Shown: in pieces, positions 8,980 through 61,431 of the stretch
Layout: each line of letters starts with the position of its first letter
How positions within the stretch are numbered: the stretch's first letter is position 1
Source of the DNA: a virus
IMG/VR virus record: IMGVR_UViG_3300036852_000300
Location: 1-64,000 of that record
DNA: 64,000 nucleotides
Reading direction: 5' to 3' (one strand)
Notes under the pieces: model-generated
Told to the model about the DNA's origin: nothing
Database searches by the model: none
What the model saw: only the letters and a program-made list of their open reading frames with translations
Position numbers and translations under genes: made by a program

Positions 8980-10740
8980 TTGTCTGTTTCTCCCACCCGA
9001 CCGAACCTGCCCCCGGCACCCCCGGCCCGCCGTCGGCGACGCCGCCGGCGCGGCTACGAACCGGTCCGGACCGACAACAGTCAACTGACGCGCGAGTTCG
9101 TGGCCAGTGGCGATCGCCACACCTACAACCAGGCCGCCGCGTCGCTGCCCCAGCCGATCGATGACCTGACCCGCGACTTCGGGAACGACATCTATGAGCA
9201 GATGCTGTTGGACGCCCAGGTGGCGGCCTGCATCATCGTGTTCAAGGCGGCGGTGCTGGAAGACGGGGTCGAATTGTCACCGGCCGTCGGCGATCAGAAG
9301 GCCGACCAGTACAAGCTGGCCGTCGAGATCCGCGACCGCGCCGTCGCGATGCTGGATCGCCTGGAGACCCCGTTCGATGACGTCCTGTGGTCGATGCTGG
9401 ACGCCACCTGCTACGGCAACAAGATCGCCGAAGTCTGCAACGTCCTGGAGCGCGAGGACGGCCGGACCTGGATGCGGATTCGGGCGATCAAGCCGAAGCC
9501 CAGGCGGGCGATCGCCTTCGTGGTCGACCAGTTCTACAACGTCCTGGGATTCATCGGGGCCAAGCCCGGCCAGACCGTTCCTAACAGTGTGGGGTCGGTC
9601 CCGAAGTCGGCCGACGTCCTGCCACGAGACAAGTTCGCGGTCCTGTCCTGGCGCCCCCAGGACGGTGACCCCCGGGGGACCAGCATGCTCCGGCCGGCCT
9701 ATGAAGGCTGGTGGCGCAAGCGCCAGATGTACCCGGAGTACCTGAAGTACCTGACCCAGTTCGCCGGCCCCAGCTTGTGGGCGACCGCCCCTGAAGGGGT
9801 GGCGATCCAGCCGGTCACCGACGCCACCGGCAACCCGGTCGACGCCGACGGGAACCCGCTGGACCCGTCGATGATCCCGGCTGGCGAGGATGAAGAAGCG
9901 CAGGCGGCCCAGCAGGAAGCGCTGCTGACGGTCCTGATGGATTTCCAGAACGGCACCGCGATGGCCCTGCCGTTCGGGACCGACGTCCACGCGATCGAGA
10001 TGCAGGGCAACGGCGAGGCGTTCCTGGCCTGCTTCACCGAAGCGGATAGCCAGATCACCCACGCGATCCTGACCCAGCAGTTGGCGACCGAATCGCCCGG
10101 CATCCAGGCCCGCGCCGCCGCTGAAGTCCACCAGGACGTCCTGGGCACCCTGGTCCGCCAGGGCAAGCGGGCGGTGGCCCGGATGGTCATGCAGGACATC
10201 CTGAAGCCCTGGGTCATCCGGAACTGGGGCGAGGACAAGGCCGAGCTGACGCCCCGGGTCTCGCTGGGCGCGACCGAACACCAGGACCTGGCGGCGCTGA
10301 TGAACGCCATCGCGGCGCTGGCCCGGATCGGCTACCTGCATCCGTCCCAGCTTCCGTACGTGGACGGACTGCTGGGCCTGCCGGTCCGCGATATGTCGAC
10401 CGGCAGCGATCCGATGCCGCTGCGGCCGAAGCCGGCCACGCCAGGCGCTGGATCTGGAGGCGAGGGGCCGCGGCCTTCTAACCAGCGCCAGGGGCAGCCC
10501 AGCCGTGAGCCAGCCCGCGAGCGTGAGCGCCAGGCGGCATCCTCGCGCCGGCGCGAGGATATCTCATTTGATGGCGGCGACGTCGCCGCCCTGCTGGCCA
10601 GCCTGCCGCCGGACCAGGTCCGCTGGCTGGGCGACCTGCTGCGCGCCTTCGCGGCCGAGACCCAGGACCGCGAGCAGGTCGCCGAATGGATGTCCCGGGC
10701 TCGCCGCGTGGTCGCACCCGAGAACGGAGCCACCGTATGA
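8980..10740 (+). CDS. Portal protein (DUF935/Mu gp29-like)
   Basis: The 586-residue product matches the style of the DUF935 portal family: an early segment LTRDFGNDIYEQMLLDAQV, a clip and stem region, and a C-terminal QQLATESPGIQARAAAEVH helix. The portal forms the dodecameric ring at the packaging vertex. The TTG start at 8980 follows AAGGG (8966-8970). The last 90 residues are low-complexity and Arg-rich and contain SSRRREDISF, coded by a 30-bp sequence (10541-10570) also present in the methyltransferase gene. It overlaps the protease gene by 4 bases. Confidence 0.88.
   Translation: MSVSPTRPNLPPAPPARRRRRRRRGYEPVRTDNSQLTREFVASGDRHTYNQAAASLPQPIDDLTRDFGNDIYEQMLLDAQVAACIIVFKAAVLEDGVELSPAVGDQKADQYKLAVEIRDRAVAMLDRLETPFDDVLWSMLDATCYGNKIAEVCNVLEREDGRTWMRIRAIKPKPRRAIAFVVDQFYNVLGFIGAKPGQTVPNSVGSVPKSADVLPRDKFAVLSWRPQDGDPRGTSMLRPAYEGWWRKRQMYPEYLKYLTQFAGPSLWATAPEGVAIQPVTDATGNPVDADGNPLDPSMIPAGEDEEAQAAQQEALLTVLMDFQNGTAMALPFGTDVHAIEMQGNGEAFLACFTEADSQITHAILTQQLATESPGIQARAAAEVHQDVLGTLVRQGKRAVARMVMQDILKPWVIRNWGEDKAELTPRVSLGATEHQDLAALMNAIAALARIGYLHPSQLPYVDGLLGLPVRDMSTGSDPMPLRPKPATPGAGSGGEGPRPSNQRQGQPSREPARERERQAASSRRREDISFDGGDVAALLASLPPDQVRWLGDLLRAFAAETQDREQVAEWMSRARRVVAPENGATV
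10541..10570 (+). repeat. 30-bp sequence shared with the methyltransferase gene
   Basis: Bases 10541-10570 are identical to the reverse complement of 55479-55508. The first 18 bases, CCTCGCGCCGGCGCGAGG, form a perfect palindrome, and twelve AT-richer bases follow. In both genes it is read in the same frame and codes for SRRREDISF. Confidence 0.9.
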
Positions 10741-12350
10741 ACCTGCTGGACCGGGTCTGCACGGGTGCCTGGGCGATCCGTCCGGAAGCCCTGGAAGTCA
10801 TCATCGCCCTGGCCGATCGCCAGGACGTCCCGGCCGGGATGATCCGCGACGCGATGCACCACCGGGCGCCGCGCGACCCGGCCGAGATGCAGACCCACGC
10901 CGTCTCGGCATCCAGGGGGACGCCGATCGAAGGCGCCAGCGTCGCCTACCGGCGCGGGTCGGTCGCGGTCCTGCCGATCACCGGTCCGATCGTTCGCTAC
11001 GGCAACCTGTTCACGTCGGTCTCCGGGGGCGCCACCAGCGTCCAGGCGATCGGGCTGGACCTGAACCTCGCCCTGGCCGATCCCGACGTGAAGGCGATCA
11101 TGCTGCACGTCGATTCGCCCGGTGGCGAGAGCAACGGTATCGCTGAGCTGAGCGACATGATCTTCGCCGCCAGGGGTCGCAAGGCGATCGTCAGCTACGT
11201 CAGCGATCTGGGCGCGTCGGCCGGCTACTGGCTGGCGTCAGCCGCCAGCGAGATCGCGATCGCCCAGACCGCCGCCCTGGGATCGATCGGCGTGGTCGCC
11301 GCTGTCCAGGACCCCGAGAAGCACGACACCGGTGAGATCGAGTTCGTGTCGTCAGTCTCGCCCCACAAGCGGCTGGACCCCCGGACCAAGGTCGGCAAGG
11401 CCCAGATCCAGGCCCTGGTCGACACCCTGGGCGACATCTTCGTCGGCGCCGTCGCCCGCAATCGCGGGGTGACCGCCGAGACCGTGACCAACGACTTCGG
11501 GCAGGGTGGCCTGCTGGTCGGACAGGACGCTGTCCGCGCCGGCCTCGCCGACCGCCTGGGCAGCTTTGAAGGGGTCCTGGCCGATCTTGCCGGGTCCCCC
11601 ACCGCCGACGTCACGCAGCCCCCAGCACACCGACCGGCTGCCGCGTCAACGCCGCCAGTCGTGGCGATCGCCGCCACGACCGAGCCTGTACAGGAGCCAG
11701 AGATGGGCCTGCGCGAACGCATCCTGGAACTGGCCGCATCGCTGGACCCGGTCAACGGCAGCGCTGACCTGGAGGCCAGCATTGTGAGCCAGAACCTGCA
11801 CGCGACCACCGGCGGGACGTCCCAGACGCCGCCGCCCCCCACGGTGACGACCCACGGGACGTCCCCGACCACCCCGCCGCCGGCCCAGCCGGACGTCAAC
11901 GCCGACGCCCTGCGCGTCCGGTTGGCGGCCGCCGAAGCCGAGAATCAGCGGCTGCGCCTGCACGGCATCACTGACGCCGCCACCCGCTACGCCCAGGACA
12001 TGCTCCGGGAAGGCCGGGCGATGCCGTCCGAAGAGGACGCGATCACCGGCCTGTACATCCGGGCCGCCCTGGACGATATGTACACGCCGGTCAGCGAAGG
12101 CCCCAGCCGGGTGGCGCTGGTCCAGGCGAGCTACGCCGCCCGCCAGGCCCGGACCCAGCTTCTGGCCGAGCTGACCGACGACGCCGTCCTGCGGGCGCTG
12201 CACGACCGGGCCACGGCCCCACGGCGGTCCGCCGACGGCGAGCCGCCCAGCGACGACCGAACCCGCCAGCTTCTGGAGATGACCCCGTTGGGTCGTCGCC
12301 ACCTGGACCAGGTCAACGGCCACGCCATCAACGGGCAGGGGGGCCGGTAG
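10737..12350 (+). CDS. S49-family capsid maturation protease with C-terminal scaffold part
   Basis: The 537-residue product has an SppA-like S49 serine protease domain. VDSPGG lies at 125-130, the nucleophile Ser161 in GASAGYW, and Lys212 in SPHKRLDP is the likely general base. As in lambda gpC, this protease probably trims portal and scaffold in the procapsid. A Pro/Thr-rich linker (about 345-395) is followed by a helical region fit for scaffolding. The ATG at 10737 has GGAG upstream and overlaps the portal stop. The linker contains two GGGACGTCCC palindromes. Confidence 0.9.
   Translation: MNLLDRVCTGAWAIRPEALEVIIALADRQDVPAGMIRDAMHHRAPRDPAEMQTHAVSASRGTPIEGASVAYRRGSVAVLPITGPIVRYGNLFTSVSGGATSVQAIGLDLNLALADPDVKAIMLHVDSPGGESNGIAELSDMIFAARGRKAIVSYVSDLGASAGYWLASAASEIAIAQTAALGSIGVVAAVQDPEKHDTGEIEFVSSVSPHKRLDPRTKVGKAQIQALVDTLGDIFVGAVARNRGVTAETVTNDFGQGGLLVGQDAVRAGLADRLGSFEGVLADLAGSPTADVTQPPAHRPAAASTPPVVAIAATTEPVQEPEMGLRERILELAASLDPVNGSADLEASIVSQNLHATTGGTSQTPPPPTVTTHGTSPTTPPPAQPDVNADALRVRLAAAEAENQRLRLHGITDAATRYAQDMLREGRAMPSEEDAITGLYIRAALDDMYTPVSEGPSRVALVQASYAARQARTQLLAELTDDAVLRALHDRATAPRRSADGEPPSDDRTRQLLEMTPLGRRHLDQVNGHAINGQGGR
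11703..12350 (+). CDS. Predicted nested scaffold protein from an internal start
   Basis: Inside the protease gene, in the same frame, an ATG at 11703 is preceded by AGGAG (11692-11696) at a 6-base gap, a textbook initiation site. The product would be the 215-residue C-terminal part (MGLRERILELAASLDP...), with helical ends and a Pro/Thr-rich centre. Lambda C/Nu3 uses the same arrangement, where an in-frame internal start makes the scaffold. The protein cannot be proven from DNA alone. Confidence 0.55.
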   Translation: MGLRERILELAASLDPVNGSADLEASIVSQNLHATTGGTSQTPPPPTVTTHGTSPTTPPPAQPDVNADALRVRLAAAEAENQRLRLHGITDAATRYAQDMLREGRAMPSEEDAITGLYIRAALDDMYTPVSEGPSRVALVQASYAARQARTQLLAELTDDAVLRALHDRATAPRRSADGEPPSDDRTRQLLEMTPLGRRHLDQVNGHAINGQGGR

Positions 12351-54329: not shown

Positions 54330-54547
54330 CGGACGGTGCGGACCACACTGGCCGGGTCGACCCCGGCCGGCAGGTTGGCGTGGACGGTCACCAGGCCGTT
54401 GTCTCTCAGCGCCGCCAGGTAGCCGTCGGCGTAGTCTTCGAGACTGCACCGCTGCCGGGGCCGCTGGCGGTAGGCCCGCAACAGCCGCAGCTCATGCTGC
54501 CCCGGCAGCACGCCGCGCAGGTGGTCGGGGATCTTGACGTCGGTCAT
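54326..54547 (-). CDS. Hypothetical protein, 73 aa
   Basis: The product MTDVKIPDHLRGVLPGQHEL and a helical end with SLEDYADGYLAALRDNGLV is small and coupled to the methyltransferase (ATGA). Perhaps a helper of that enzyme; no motif. Confidence 0.6.
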   Translation of the reverse strand: MTDVKIPDHLRGVLPGQHELRLLRAYRQRPRQRCSLEDYADGYLAALRDNGLVTVHANLPAGVDPASVVRTVR

Positions 54548-55845
54548 GCAGCGATCCTTTCCGCCACGCGCCGCCTGGCTGACAGCACGTAGCTCTCTTC
54601 GGTGTCGGTGCCGTAGAAGCGGCGGCCGGCGACGGCCGCCGCTTCGGCGGTGGTCCCCGATCCGACGAACGGGTCCACCACCAGGTCACCCGGGAACGAC
54701 AGCAGGTAGATCAGCCGGCGCGGGATCTCGATCGGGAACGGGGCCGGGTGGCCGTCGACCGCGTTGGTCTCGCCTCGGACCGGCCAGTAGCCGTTGGTCC
54801 AGATCAGCCACCCTTCGTGGGAGAGGTCGGACGAGACGTCGGTCCGGGTCTGCCCCCATTCGTCACCCTTGAACAGCAGGATGATCACTTCGCCGGGGAA
54901 GTAGATGAACGGGCTGGCCGCGCTGTCTCGGGACCCCCGGGCGGTCGACTTGCCCAACTGGTCGTCGTGCCAGACGATCGTGTTGCGGTAGGTCCAGCCG
55001 GCCCGCTGGGCGTCGGTCAGGGCCTGGGCGTAGGTCGGCCGGGCCGGCACGTAGGGCTGGCCGGTGGCCGGGTCTTCGGCGATCGGGGCGGTGTCCAGCG
55101 GCACGTTCAGCGCCAGCCGGCCGCCTGGCTTGGTGTACCGGTACGCTTCGGTCAACCAGTCCTGCATCAACGCGCGCCACTGATCGACCGCGATGTCGCC
55201 CTTCAGGTACCGCTTCCCCAGCGCGTACGGCGGCGAGGTCACGATCAGGTCGACCATGTCGTCGCCCAGATCCATGCGGCGGGCGTCGCCGACGGCGATC
55301 TGGCAACTGGGGACGATCGTCGGCGGCGGAAGCTGCGCCCGTTCATTCGCCTTGATCTGGGCGCGGGCCTCGCCGGCCGCCCGGCGAACGTCCTCGCGCT
55401 TCCAGCCCTTCTCTTCGGCGATGTCCAGGATCGCGTCCTGCATCACCGGCGGCAGGGCCGCGACTTCGCGGTGGTGGGCAAATGAGATATCCTCGCGCCG
55501 GCGCGAGGGCTCGATCCGGCGGCCGACCCAGGCGATGTCATGCAGGGTCTGGACCGACAGCCCGGATTCGTGGACCCACTGGGCGTACTTCTCGCCGTAG
55601 TCGCGCCCGAAGTTGATCGCGTCGGCCAGCGCGAATTCCAGGCGCTTGTGGGCGCGGATCAGCCGCGAGGTCAGGCCGGCCCAGACCGCAAGCGGGGTGT
55701 CAGGGCGGAACCGCAGGCCGGTCGCGGTCTCGGTGACGTAGTACCGCTCATCGGCGGTCACCAGCAGGGTCGGGTTGTCGTCCGTCCCAGCGAACGCAGC
55801 AGTCGGAACGTCCTGGGGCAGCAGAAGCCGGCGATCGATCGTCAT
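54544..55845 (-). CDS. DNA methyltransferase (amino-group, SPPY type), 433 aa
   Basis: Motif IV VTSPPYALG (202-210) and the C-terminal motif I DPFVGSGTTAEAA (391-403) in this order indicate a beta-class N4-cytosine or N6-adenine methyltransferase. The N-terminal 170 residues form a ParB/helix-rich targeting part with SRRREDISFAHHREVAALPP. No restriction enzyme gene is next to it, so it probably protects phage DNA or regulates. Its SRRREDISF codons are the 30-bp sequence shared with the portal gene. Confidence 0.88.
   Translation of the reverse strand: MTIDRRLLLPQDVPTAAFAGTDDNPTLLVTADERYYVTETATGLRFRPDTPLAVWAGLTSRLIRAHKRLEFALADAINFGRDYGEKYAQWVHESGLSVQTLHDIAWVGRRIEPSRRREDISFAHHREVAALPPVMQDAILDIAEEKGWKREDVRRAAGEARAQIKANERAQLPPPTIVPSCQIAVGDARRMDLGDDMVDLIVTSPPYALGKRYLKGDIAVDQWRALMQDWLTEAYRYTKPGGRLALNVPLDTAPIAEDPATGQPYVPARPTYAQALTDAQRAGWTYRNTIVWHDDQLGKSTARGSRDSAASPFIYFPGEVIILLFKGDEWGQTRTDVSSDLSHEGWLIWTNGYWPVRGETNAVDGHPAPFPIEIPRRLIYLLSFPGDLVVDPFVGSGTTAEAAAVAGRRFYGTDTEESYVLSARRRVAERIAA
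55479..55508 (-). repeat. 30-bp sequence shared with the portal gene
   Basis: Reverse-complement copy of 10541-10570, exact over 30 bases, again in the frame SRRREDISF. The REDISF-HH-EVA context is normal for this protein family, so this copy is more likely the source. Confidence 0.9.
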
Positions 55846-56991: not shown

Positions 56992-58029
56992 CTAGAACCT
57001 CTTGTTCTCGCGGATGTTCTGCTTCTGGGCGCGGGTCCCCCCACCGTGGCGGGTGCCGTCGTACGGGCGTTCGACCGGCGAGGCCCCGTAGAAGCGGCCG
57101 CGTCCAGCCTGACGGTCCCGGGTCTCCAGGAAGCGAGACGGCGGACGATCGTCGCCCCGGGTGGCGGCGGCAAGCTGGCCAGCCCTGATCGGATTCTTGC
57201 CCAGCCGATTCAGGGCACCGCGCCTGGCCTTGTCGATCCCGCGCACCCCGTCGCCGGCCAGGTAGGTCACCGACGCCATGATCTCGTCGGCGCCGATCTC
57301 GGCGACCGCTTCCTCCAGCAGCCGGACCTGGGTCGGATTCAGGGTCGGGTGCGCCGCCCCCCACTCCACGGCGTAGTGGTCCATGACGGCCTGGGCACCC
57401 GGCGACAGGGCGATCGCCGACGGAGACGGCCGTGGCTTCGGCGGCTTTGATGTCGAAACTTCTTGCGAAGAAAATTCACCTTCTGTCGCGCCGCCGGGAC
57501 CGGCCGGTTGCGAAGCAACCGCCGGTCTTTTTATCTCCGGAGTCTCCGGATCCGGTCTCCGGTTAAGATAACCGTCATTTTTTGGCCGGTGTGACCGTCC
57601 ATTTTCTGACGGTGTCGCGTCATTTTTTGGCCGGTGTCCACCGTCCCGATCCGAGACACCGTCATTTTTTGGCCGGTGTCCAACCTGTTCGCCCGGATCG
57701 ATCGGCCAGTACGCCTTCGCCTGGGTCGGACCGGTCCGCTTCTGGCCCAGTAACCCGCAGTCGACCAGGGGCTTGACCAGCGCCCGGACGGTCCGGGTCT
57801 CGCGGCCGACTAGCTGGGCTAGCTCGCCGTGGGACAGGCGGCAGGTCCCGGTCTCATCGCGCCACGCCTGGTCGGCGATGACCAGGTACAGGATCTTGAG
57901 CTGGGGGGTCAGCGTCAGGTCGTACAGCATCGCCTTGCGCAGGATCACGAACGGCTCAACCATGCGCAGTCCCGGCTGTCCGGTCTCGCGGGGGGTGTAT
58001 TCGATCGGCAGCTCATGTGCGACCACCAT
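56992..58029 (-). CDS. Replication initiator, lambda O-like, 345 aa
   Basis: The N-terminal 115 residues form a winged-helix domain (LTLTPQLKILYLVIADQAWR, LSHGELAQLVGRETRTVRAL). A linker holds three HRPKND repeats, a Ser/Pro-rich hinge follows, and a DnaD-like C-terminal domain (TQVRLLEEAVAEIGADEIMA) completes it. The linker DNA contains 19-bp iteron-like repeats. Directly downstream is the helicase loader, as in lambda O-P. The N-domain probably binds the repeats in its own gene. Confidence 0.82.
   Translation of the reverse strand: MVVAHELPIEYTPRETGQPGLRMVEPFVILRKAMLYDLTLTPQLKILYLVIADQAWRDETGTCRLSHGELAQLVGRETRTVRALVKPLVDCGLLGQKRTGPTQAKAYWPIDPGEQVGHRPKNDGVSDRDGGHRPKNDATPSENGRSHRPKNDGYLNRRPDPETPEIKRPAVASQPAGPGGATEGEFSSQEVSTSKPPKPRPSPSAIALSPGAQAVMDHYAVEWGAAHPTLNPTQVRLLEEAVAEIGADEIMASVTYLAGDGVRGIDKARRGALNRLGKNPIRAGQLAAATRGDDRPPSRFLETRDRQAGRGRFYGASPVERPYDGTRHGGGTRAQKQNIRENKRF
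57574..57679. repeat. Iteron-like repeats inside the initiator gene, candidate origin
   Basis: The 19-mer GTCATTTTTTGGCCGGTGT (plus strand) is exact at 57574-57592, 57619-57637 and 57661-57679, with a 14/19 copy at 57597-57615. Starts are spaced about 22, 22 and 42 bases, so copies face the same side of the helix. The T6 run and the AT-richer flank (TTAAGATAACC at 57563-57573, TTTTTATC near 57528) stand out in this GC-rich DNA and could be the unwinding region. Confidence 0.8.
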
Positions 58030-58275: not shown

Positions 58276-58362
58276 CGGGACGTCCCACGTGCTACACTGG
58301 ACCCTGAGTCGGGCTTGTGAGATGTCTCACAGTGCTGCTTGTGTAGCACGTGGGACGTCCCG
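58276..58362. promoter_or_regulatory. 22-bp inverted repeat enclosing a TGTGA-N6-TCACA operator
   Basis: Bases 58276-58297 and 58341-58362 are perfect reverse complements, each containing GGGACGTCCC and CACGTG or a part of it. Between them lies TGTGAG-ATGT-CTCACA (58316-58331). The block is in the 161-base gap between the Rad52-like gene and the minus-strand replication genes, so it is a strong candidate promoter-operator of that operon, or a terminator for the gene before it. Confidence 0.75.
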
Positions 58363-59923: not shown

Positions 59924-60451
59924 TCATGCGGAGTCCTGGTTCAGTTCGCGGAAGACGGCGACTTTGACGTCGCCGAACGTGGCGTCCGGCCCCAACGCGA
60001 TCATCCGCTGACGCCCGGCCACCAGGTAGTCCAGCAGTCGGCCGATCTTCTCGATCAGGACGTGGCGGTCTCGGGTCAGGTAGTCCAGGGTGTTCAGGGT
60101 CAGGTTGTCGACCTTCAGCCAGTGGCGTCGCCGCTGGCCTTCGATCCGGTAGCAGATGAACTTGCGCAGGCCCAGGTCGTCCCTGGTCTTGCGCAGGCGG
60201 ACCAGTACCCATTCGCGCATCGGGAACCGCAGGAAGACGTCCAGGTGCTCCTTGTGCCTGTGGCCGGGCGACAGGATCTCCTGGAACTTGATCTCGTCGC
60301 CGACCCGCATGAAGCCGCGCGTCAGCCCGACCACATCGTCCGTCGAGAACTCGCCCGGCCAGGTCTCGACTTCCTGCACGGCGGCGGCGGTCGCCGCCTT
60401 GATCGTCAGTGCCCGCCGTCGGGGTCGCGCGGGGGTCGCGGGGGCGGTCAT
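59924..60451 (-). CDS. Hypothetical protein with FGDVK motif, 175 aa
   Basis: ATG 60451 overlaps the ParB-like stop. The C-terminus ALGPDATFGDVKVAVFRELN shares the phrase (T)FGDVK-x5-RE with the ParB-like protein before it (PTFGDVKHDIVREVEA), so a common module may link the two. The middle (RVGDEIKFQEILSPGHRHKE) looks alpha/beta. Unknown function. Confidence 0.65.
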   Translation of the reverse strand: MTAPATPARPRRRALTIKAATAAAVQEVETWPGEFSTDDVVGLTRGFMRVGDEIKFQEILSPGHRHKEHLDVFLRFPMREWVLVRLRKTRDDLGLRKFICYRIEGQRRRHWLKVDNLTLNTLDYLTRDRHVLIEKIGRLLDYLVAGRQRMIALGPDATFGDVKVAVFRELNQDSA

Positions 60452-61431
60452 CACACCATCTCCAGGGGCTTCAAGTCGCGGTCGATCGCGTCGCGCAGGG
60501 ACGTCAGCCAGGCGATCCGACCCGGCAGGTCATCCAGGATCTGTCGGCGTTCCGTCGCGTCCAGGCCCCGCACCAGGTCAGGTAGCGGCCAGCGACCGGC
60601 CGACTCGATCGAATACAGCAGGTTGCGCAGCATCCGGCCTTCGGCGCCCGTCGCTTCAACCTCGCGCACGATGTCGTGCTTGACGTCGCCGAACGTCGGC
60701 GGGGGTGGCACCGGCAGCGCCGTCGGGTCGGGCGGCATCCGGCGACGGTCCGTGCCGAATTCGGACAGGTCGGCGTCCCCGTTCAACAGGGCCTGCTTGT
60801 CCGCCTCCGGGACCGTGGGGTCCTTGACGATCGCGACCGCCGCGCTGGTCTCGACACTGTCCCAGTCTTCTTCGACCGCCGCGTCGACCAGCGGCTGCCA
60901 GGTCTCGCGTGGCGCGCGGCTGATCTCGGCGTAGTGGCTGTCGGTCAGGCGGTCGTCAGCTTCGCTACTAGTAGCGAAGTCGTTCAGTCGCGTTGGTTCG
61001 ACAACCTCCGCGCGCACCCGGTCGGCCGCGAATAACTTACTGATGACCGGGCGCGAGACCCCAAACCGCTGGGCCAGCCGCTGGTGGGACCAGGCGTCGC
61101 CCGGCAGCCCGGCCAGGCGGCGGATCGCGGCGTTCCGTTCTTCCCGATCCAGCGGCTTGCCGTGGGCCAGGTTGGCCAGCGCCGCGAATTCGATGGCGTC
61201 TTGCCGACTGCCCCGGTGGACCACCGCCTCGATCTCGGTCCGGCCTTCCAGGACGGCCGCTTCGACGCGGTGGAAGCCGTCGACCAGCAGGTAGGCGCCG
61301 TCGACCAGGAACACGTCGACCGGTGGCAGCGCGTCGAGCGCTTCGGCGTAGCGCTGCACGGTGTCGGGGTCGTTCGCCGCCCTGATCTGGACGGTCGGGT
61401 CGACCACGATGGCGTCGATCGACAGTCTCAC
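60451..61431 (-). CDS. ParB-like DNA-binding protein, 326 aa
   Basis: LLVDGFHRVEAAVLEGRTEI (48-67) is the ParB box region. WSHQRLAQRFGVSRPVISKL (114-133) is a helix-turn-helix, so unlike the 4566 protein it can bind DNA by itself. The C-terminus carries the FGDVK module. It may regulate early genes or act in replication or DNA modification control. It overlaps a small membrane gene at its start. Confidence 0.8.
   Translation of the reverse strand: MRLSIDAIVVDPTVQIRAANDPDTVQRYAEALDALPPVDVFLVDGAYLLVDGFHRVEAAVLEGRTEIEAVVHRGSRQDAIEFAALANLAHGKPLDREERNAAIRRLAGLPGDAWSHQRLAQRFGVSRPVISKLFAADRVRAEVVEPTRLNDFATSSEADDRLTDSHYAEISRAPRETWQPLVDAAVEEDWDSVETSAAVAIVKDPTVPEADKQALLNGDADLSEFGTDRRRMPPDPTALPVPPPPTFGDVKHDIVREVEATGAEGRMLRNLLYSIESAGRWPLPDLVRGLDATERRQILDDLPGRIAWLTSLRDAIDRDLKPLEMV

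Follow-up and report, generated by a model that had tools for sequence, protein, structure and literature searches.

Rad52-like phage recombinases accept substrates that are short and diverged (De Paepe et al. 2014, PMC3945230), and by such limited homology a phage gene can gain a foreign stretch, giving rise to mosaic genes. The locus described here shares this outcome, but its tract is 30-52 bp long and is carried, in inverted orientation, by two genes of a single genome that are unrelated to each other; moreover, no such recombinase was recognized among the early-region genes scanned, and the portal event is deduced from sequence. Template-switch mutations at palindromes and inverted repeats (PMC8604942, PMC7202029) likewise involve inverted copies, hairpin-forming sequence and multi-base replacement in coding DNA; there, however, the inverted repeats are short and nearby, whereas 45 kb separates the two copies here. 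Rickettsia palindromic elements and MITE-like coding insertions also place palindromic DNA in frame within unrelated genes, but in this case there are two copies, no family, and a source that is ordinary conserved coding sequence. LmbU regulators (NF038070; PMC6510168), whose binding site is the palindrome CGCCGGCG (PMC6510168; PMC10763038), resemble the source gene in its N-terminal domain, in an RRR..LSF.HH.EVA stretch, and in the presence of CGCCGGCG at the center of the palindrome. The source gene differs in being a phage gene in which this domain is fused to a DNA methyltransferase, and its N-terminus scores 89.7 bits against NF038070, where the curated whole-protein cut-off is 125 bits; we classify it as a relative of the LmbU domain, not a full-length LmbU.

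The window, the whole stretch of DNA analyzed here, spans positions 1 to 64,000 of an 86,416-bp IMG/VR record (68% G+C). The first 127 bases of the record are identical to its last 127, an end repeat of the kind left in a circular contig by assembly at k=127. The portal gene (8980..10740, + strand) falls in the Portal_Mu family (PF06074, 2.2e-44; 152.6 bits, above the gathering score of 23.9), and its variable C-terminal linker, from approximately residue 470, holds the patch. The portal ORF runs on past the patch and overlaps the next gene at 10686, which, judged by eye, looks like an SppA/S49-type peptidase; the same portal-then-SppA gene order is found in Microcystis phage Mae-JY24. The second gene (54544..55845, - strand) is a predicted fusion of an LmbU domain (NF038070, residues 42-169, 2.1e-25) with an N4-N6 DNA methyltransferase (PF01555, residues 198-423, 2.6e-34).

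An initial, sequence-only reading had reported that these genes share an exact 30-base inverted match, which includes an 18-bp perfect palindrome and is read as SRRREDISF in both, and all three observations hold. The 30-mer CCTCGCGCCGGCGCGAGGATATCTCATTTG at 10541..10570 (+) is the reverse complement of 55479..55508 (-), with no internal mismatch and with one mismatch bounding it at either end; the palindrome is contained in both copies, and the codon frame is identical. The portal codons at the patch are TCC TCG CGC CGG CGC GAG GAT ATC TCA TTT G.., and those of the methyltransferase are CCC followed by the same series. In the portal the palindrome extends to 22 bp (ATCCTCGCGCCGGCGCGAGGAT, 10539..10560), predicted to form a hairpin as a single strand, and is adjacent to a second perfect palindrome of 18 bp (GGCGGCGACGTCGCCGCC, 10573..10590), the methyltransferase counterpart of which, CCGCGAAGTCGCGG, is imperfect.

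If a local repeat (24604/24712) and the end repeat are set aside, no exact repeat in the 86.4-kb record is longer than the 30-mer. Because the longest exact repeats in simulated records span only 17-21 bases (Markov orders 3 and 5, 40 simulations each; repeat copies more than 300 bp apart), a chance origin of the 30-bp identity is excluded. Given the same nine-residue peptide, the probability of identical codons under this phage's codon usage averages approximately 3e-4 and, for the codon set observed here, is 1.6e-5. The codons common to both copies include two that are rare in this phage, TCA (7% of Ser) and TTT (15% of Phe), so that the patch is copied DNA rather than a product of peptide convergence. 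DNA identity beyond chance that includes synonymous positions is the pattern expected of a gene-conversion or templated-copy patch.

The motif RRR..[LI]SF.HH.EVA is conserved, with differing codons, in LmbU-domain proteins from Streptomyces and Pseudonocardia plasmids and from phage contigs. Since the aligned LmbU-domain stretch keeps this motif with other codons, the methyltransferase copy of the 30-mer (55479..55508, -) is native family sequence. The sequence-only reading was right that the phrase is usual in the methyltransferase family but out of place in a portal tail, except that it is the LmbU-type DNA-binding domain at the N-terminus, rather than the methylase domain, that defines the family concerned. 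The portal copy, by contrast, sits in the linker beyond the last conserved segment (residue ~468). The expectation that portal homologs might lack REDISF was borne out in 33 of the 33 relatives read out (30 from IMG/VR and three named phages; two of the 33 are truncated), and in none was the same peptide encoded by other codons, the sign of protein-level conservation named by the sequence-only reading. The tails of these relatives, which share 21-53% identity with the portal, differ in length and sequence; that of the closest (L015, 53% identity) is unrelated and without REDISF, and no relative above 53% identity was found in the IMG/VR searches. Neither the portal nor the methyltransferase gave a match when used as a single-protein query against IMG/VR, and alignment queries of the same database returned 32 portal loci and eight LmbU or methyltransferase loci. 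A portal-profile scan of GTDB genomes gave no match, and none of 44 terminase relatives, fetched as a source of further portals, carried a recognizable relative of this portal. With one copy native and the other missing from homologs, as expected of a gene-conversion or templated-copy patch, the direction of copying, from methyltransferase to portal, is clear.

Although the exact identity is 30 bp, as the sequence-only reading stated, the similarity probably continues beyond it. Downstream of the 30-mer, approximately nine differing bases are followed by a 16/18 match that is offset by 3 nt (portal GCGACGTCGCCGCCCTGC, methyltransferase GCGAAGTCGCGGCCCTGC); a match this good has a frequency of 3.5e-4 in random coding pairs. 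Scanning IMG/VR for the 18-bp palindrome identified a contig, L099, with a gene in which an LmbU-like domain is fused to MT-A70 and the palindrome occurs in the same codons. By blastn, this gene aligns to the window methyltransferase over 104 bp (78.8% identity, E 1.4e-16), marking an LmbU-domain coding stretch at 55454..55556 (-) with 79% DNA identity, and to the portal over 10541-10592 (80%, E 3.6e-5). Because of the latter alignment, we consider the copied tract to be probably ~52 bp long, its probable remainder lying at 10571..10592 (+), where the sequence encodes DGGDVAAL and is diverged yet resembles LmbU-domain DNA. Since L099 has the same codons as well as this alignment to the portal, the palindrome is best read as a piece of the coding sequence for an LmbU domain that was inserted, without loss of frame, in the portal's variable C-terminal linker. 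The palindrome of L099 is no evidence of selection on the palindrome, because L099 was found by it. With SRRREDISF masked, the portal tail gave no signal (E ~10) against an LmbU profile built without the window protein; LmbU homology of the whole portal tail is therefore unsupported, and it is DNA similarity that argues for the longer tract. In these phage records, LmbU-type domains are observed fused to unrelated methyltransferases, N6_N4_Mtase in the window (54544-55845, -) and MT-A70 in L099 (L099:3416-4444).

We assign a probability of approximately 0.72 to the interpretation that one recombination event placed an in-frame copy of a short methyltransferase-gene segment in the variable portal linker. 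Among the options offered by the sequence-only reading, a gene-conversion patch fits best, running from methyltransferase to portal. The copied segment would code for the part just after the helix-turn-helix of the LmbU-type DNA-binding domain, and the recombination, whether internal to the phage or involving a relative, may have been gene conversion or template switching. A likely route is that a single-strand annealing recombinase paired short, similar, arginine-rich and GC-rich stretches; alternatively, replication may have slipped, switching template at the hairpin. Codons for arginine and glutamate (CGC, CGT, GAG) abound in the portal linker, as they do in the source, so annealing of single strands could have begun at short similarities that were already there; among the early-region genes scanned, a single-strand annealing protein was not recognized. 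As the portal tail is not conserved, the insertion would have been tolerated. Of the ~52-bp tract, 30 bp are still identical and the remainder would have diverged or been re-edited; the length of the tract, the single event and the route are what we infer from the pattern as a whole. Overall, the patch has the appearance of a scar from a single recombination event in a variable protein tail, rather than that of a mobile element or a functional DNA site.

Counting against this interpretation, divergence along the tract is uneven, with no changes in 30 bp, ~9 replaced bases plus a 3-bp gap, and then two changes in 18, and neutral evolution of one tract would not produce such unevenness without a second event or selection. 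Selection on the DNA could have kept a functional site in both genes if the palindrome, with its core CGCCGGCG, were bound by the LmbU-type methyltransferase or by a packaging or recombination protein, a reading that we consider unlikely. It draws on the position of the published LmbU target (PMC6510168), which is the exact center of the 18-mer and is present at 10546 and 55496, and on the portal sequence itself, where the palindrome is longer (22 bp), a second 18-bp palindrome lies 12 bp away, and the palindromes fold better than most shuffles (z -2.3, compared with -0.4 for the methyltransferase region). The record also holds nine perfect palindromes of at least 18 bp against ~1.5 expected (simulations, 40 runs per order, largest count 5). 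However, CGCCGGCG occurs 32 times in the record where 18 are expected, such that the core marks nothing, and the extended palindrome occurs only twice. Further, 12 of the 30 identical bases are non-palindromic (ATATCTCATTTG), the protein frame is kept although a binding site does not need it, and the palindrome is not kept by most LmbU-domain relatives; L099 keeps it, but was found through it and is no independent test. Both CGCCGGCG-bearing copies lie inside coding sequence, and not in a promoter region as would be expected of an LmbU operator. The match to the LmbU target is a suggestive coincidence.

A second event is invoked by a somewhat less probable history, in which the portal long ago captured a longer LmbU half-domain and a later 30-bp gene conversion took place between the copies. 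Such a history would account for the uneven divergence; it would also suit the resemblance of the portal SRRREDISF-DGGDVAAL..LPP to SRRREDISFAHHREVAALPP, and the 52-55 bp spanned by the L099 alignment. Against it stands the masked portal tail, in which the profile described above detects nothing of the LmbU domain. More improbable again is the proposal that the LmbU-methyltransferase binds the palindrome at both loci, its own gene and the portal gene, making the patch an intragenic operator or a methylation-guided switch, with the adjacent portal palindromes as paired sites. If true, such an intragenic switch would link late head genes to the methyltransferase.

A small mobile palindromic element in coding sequence, comparable to those of Rickettsia, is very improbable, even though the sequence is palindromic and in frame in two unrelated genes. 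This possibility, raised by the sequence-only reading, is not borne out: the record holds two copies only at up to three mismatches, the exact 30-mer is absent from IMG/VR and GTDB contigs, and no target duplication is seen. The 18-mer occurs in five viral contigs, the contexts of which are unrelated save for L099, and the methyltransferase copy is family sequence, not an interruption of it. An assembly or library chimera is equally improbable. The record does come from a metagenome-era virus collection, and palindromes are known as sites of template-switch artifacts, but a misjoin would exchange flanks rather than paste 30 bp, and the 127-bp end repeat indicates k=127 assembly. LmbU homology runs across the site in the methyltransferase, and the portal continues coherently into its overlap with the next gene at 10686; with both genes intact and coherent across the site, we exclude a misjoin as the source. 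An invertase-type site, considered in view of the inverted, in-frame copies, was rejected, as inversion would fuse portal and methyltransferase halves, a functionally senseless product, and no other site was found.

Several other repeats were observed. A half-site, GCGAGGATATCTCATTTG, is present at L102:2258-2275 and L103:1059-1076, in a phage gene of 43-44% GC whose sequence at this point is shared by the two contigs; it is read as ..REDISFDFLEDNYF.., and the gene resembles a T4-type portal. As a related copy it was set aside, since it represents one locus and is, by a rough estimate, at about chance level for an 18-mer in such a collection; it is probably a coincidence. Three of the nine perfect palindromes of at least 18 bp in the 86-kb record belong to the portal and methyltransferase patches. 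The 10-bp palindrome GGGACGTCCC occurs 14 times in the record against 0.28 expected from 3-mer composition, at 11814, 11856, 14503, 14554, 45205, 45499, 45530, 58277 and 58352 in the window and at 65583, 65623, 67156, 72533 and 73788 beyond it. Its copies are often paired, 31-75 bp apart; candidate roles are an operator or a binding site of the ParB type, and a ParB-like gene is present at 60451-61431. At 58276-58297 and 58341-58362, the arms of a perfect 22-bp inverted repeat, separated by 43 bases, each carry GGGACGTCCC and CACGTG; this repeat adjoins replication-initiation and helicase-loader genes and is possibly a replication origin or partition site. Within a replication-initiation-like gene, 57573-57682 holds three iteron-like copies of CGTCATTTTTTGGCCGGTGT(CCA), 42-45 bases apart. 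Finally, the 10-mer CTCCTCTCAG occurs 21 times in the 86-kb record, often extended to GCTCCTCTCAGG, and its complement, CCTGAGAGGAGC, resembles a canonical ribosome-binding sequence.

These data provide a clean, directional example of new sequence reaching the variable tail of a structural phage protein from another, unrelated gene in its genome. The gain amounts to tens of bases, in frame, and is recognizable through shared rare codons. The comparison with L099 additionally reveals LmbU-type DNA-binding domains joined to at least two unrelated types of phage DNA methyltransferase. What the locus records is a real, directional and small copy-paste between two phage genes, which is unusual to catch but is not a new kind of system.
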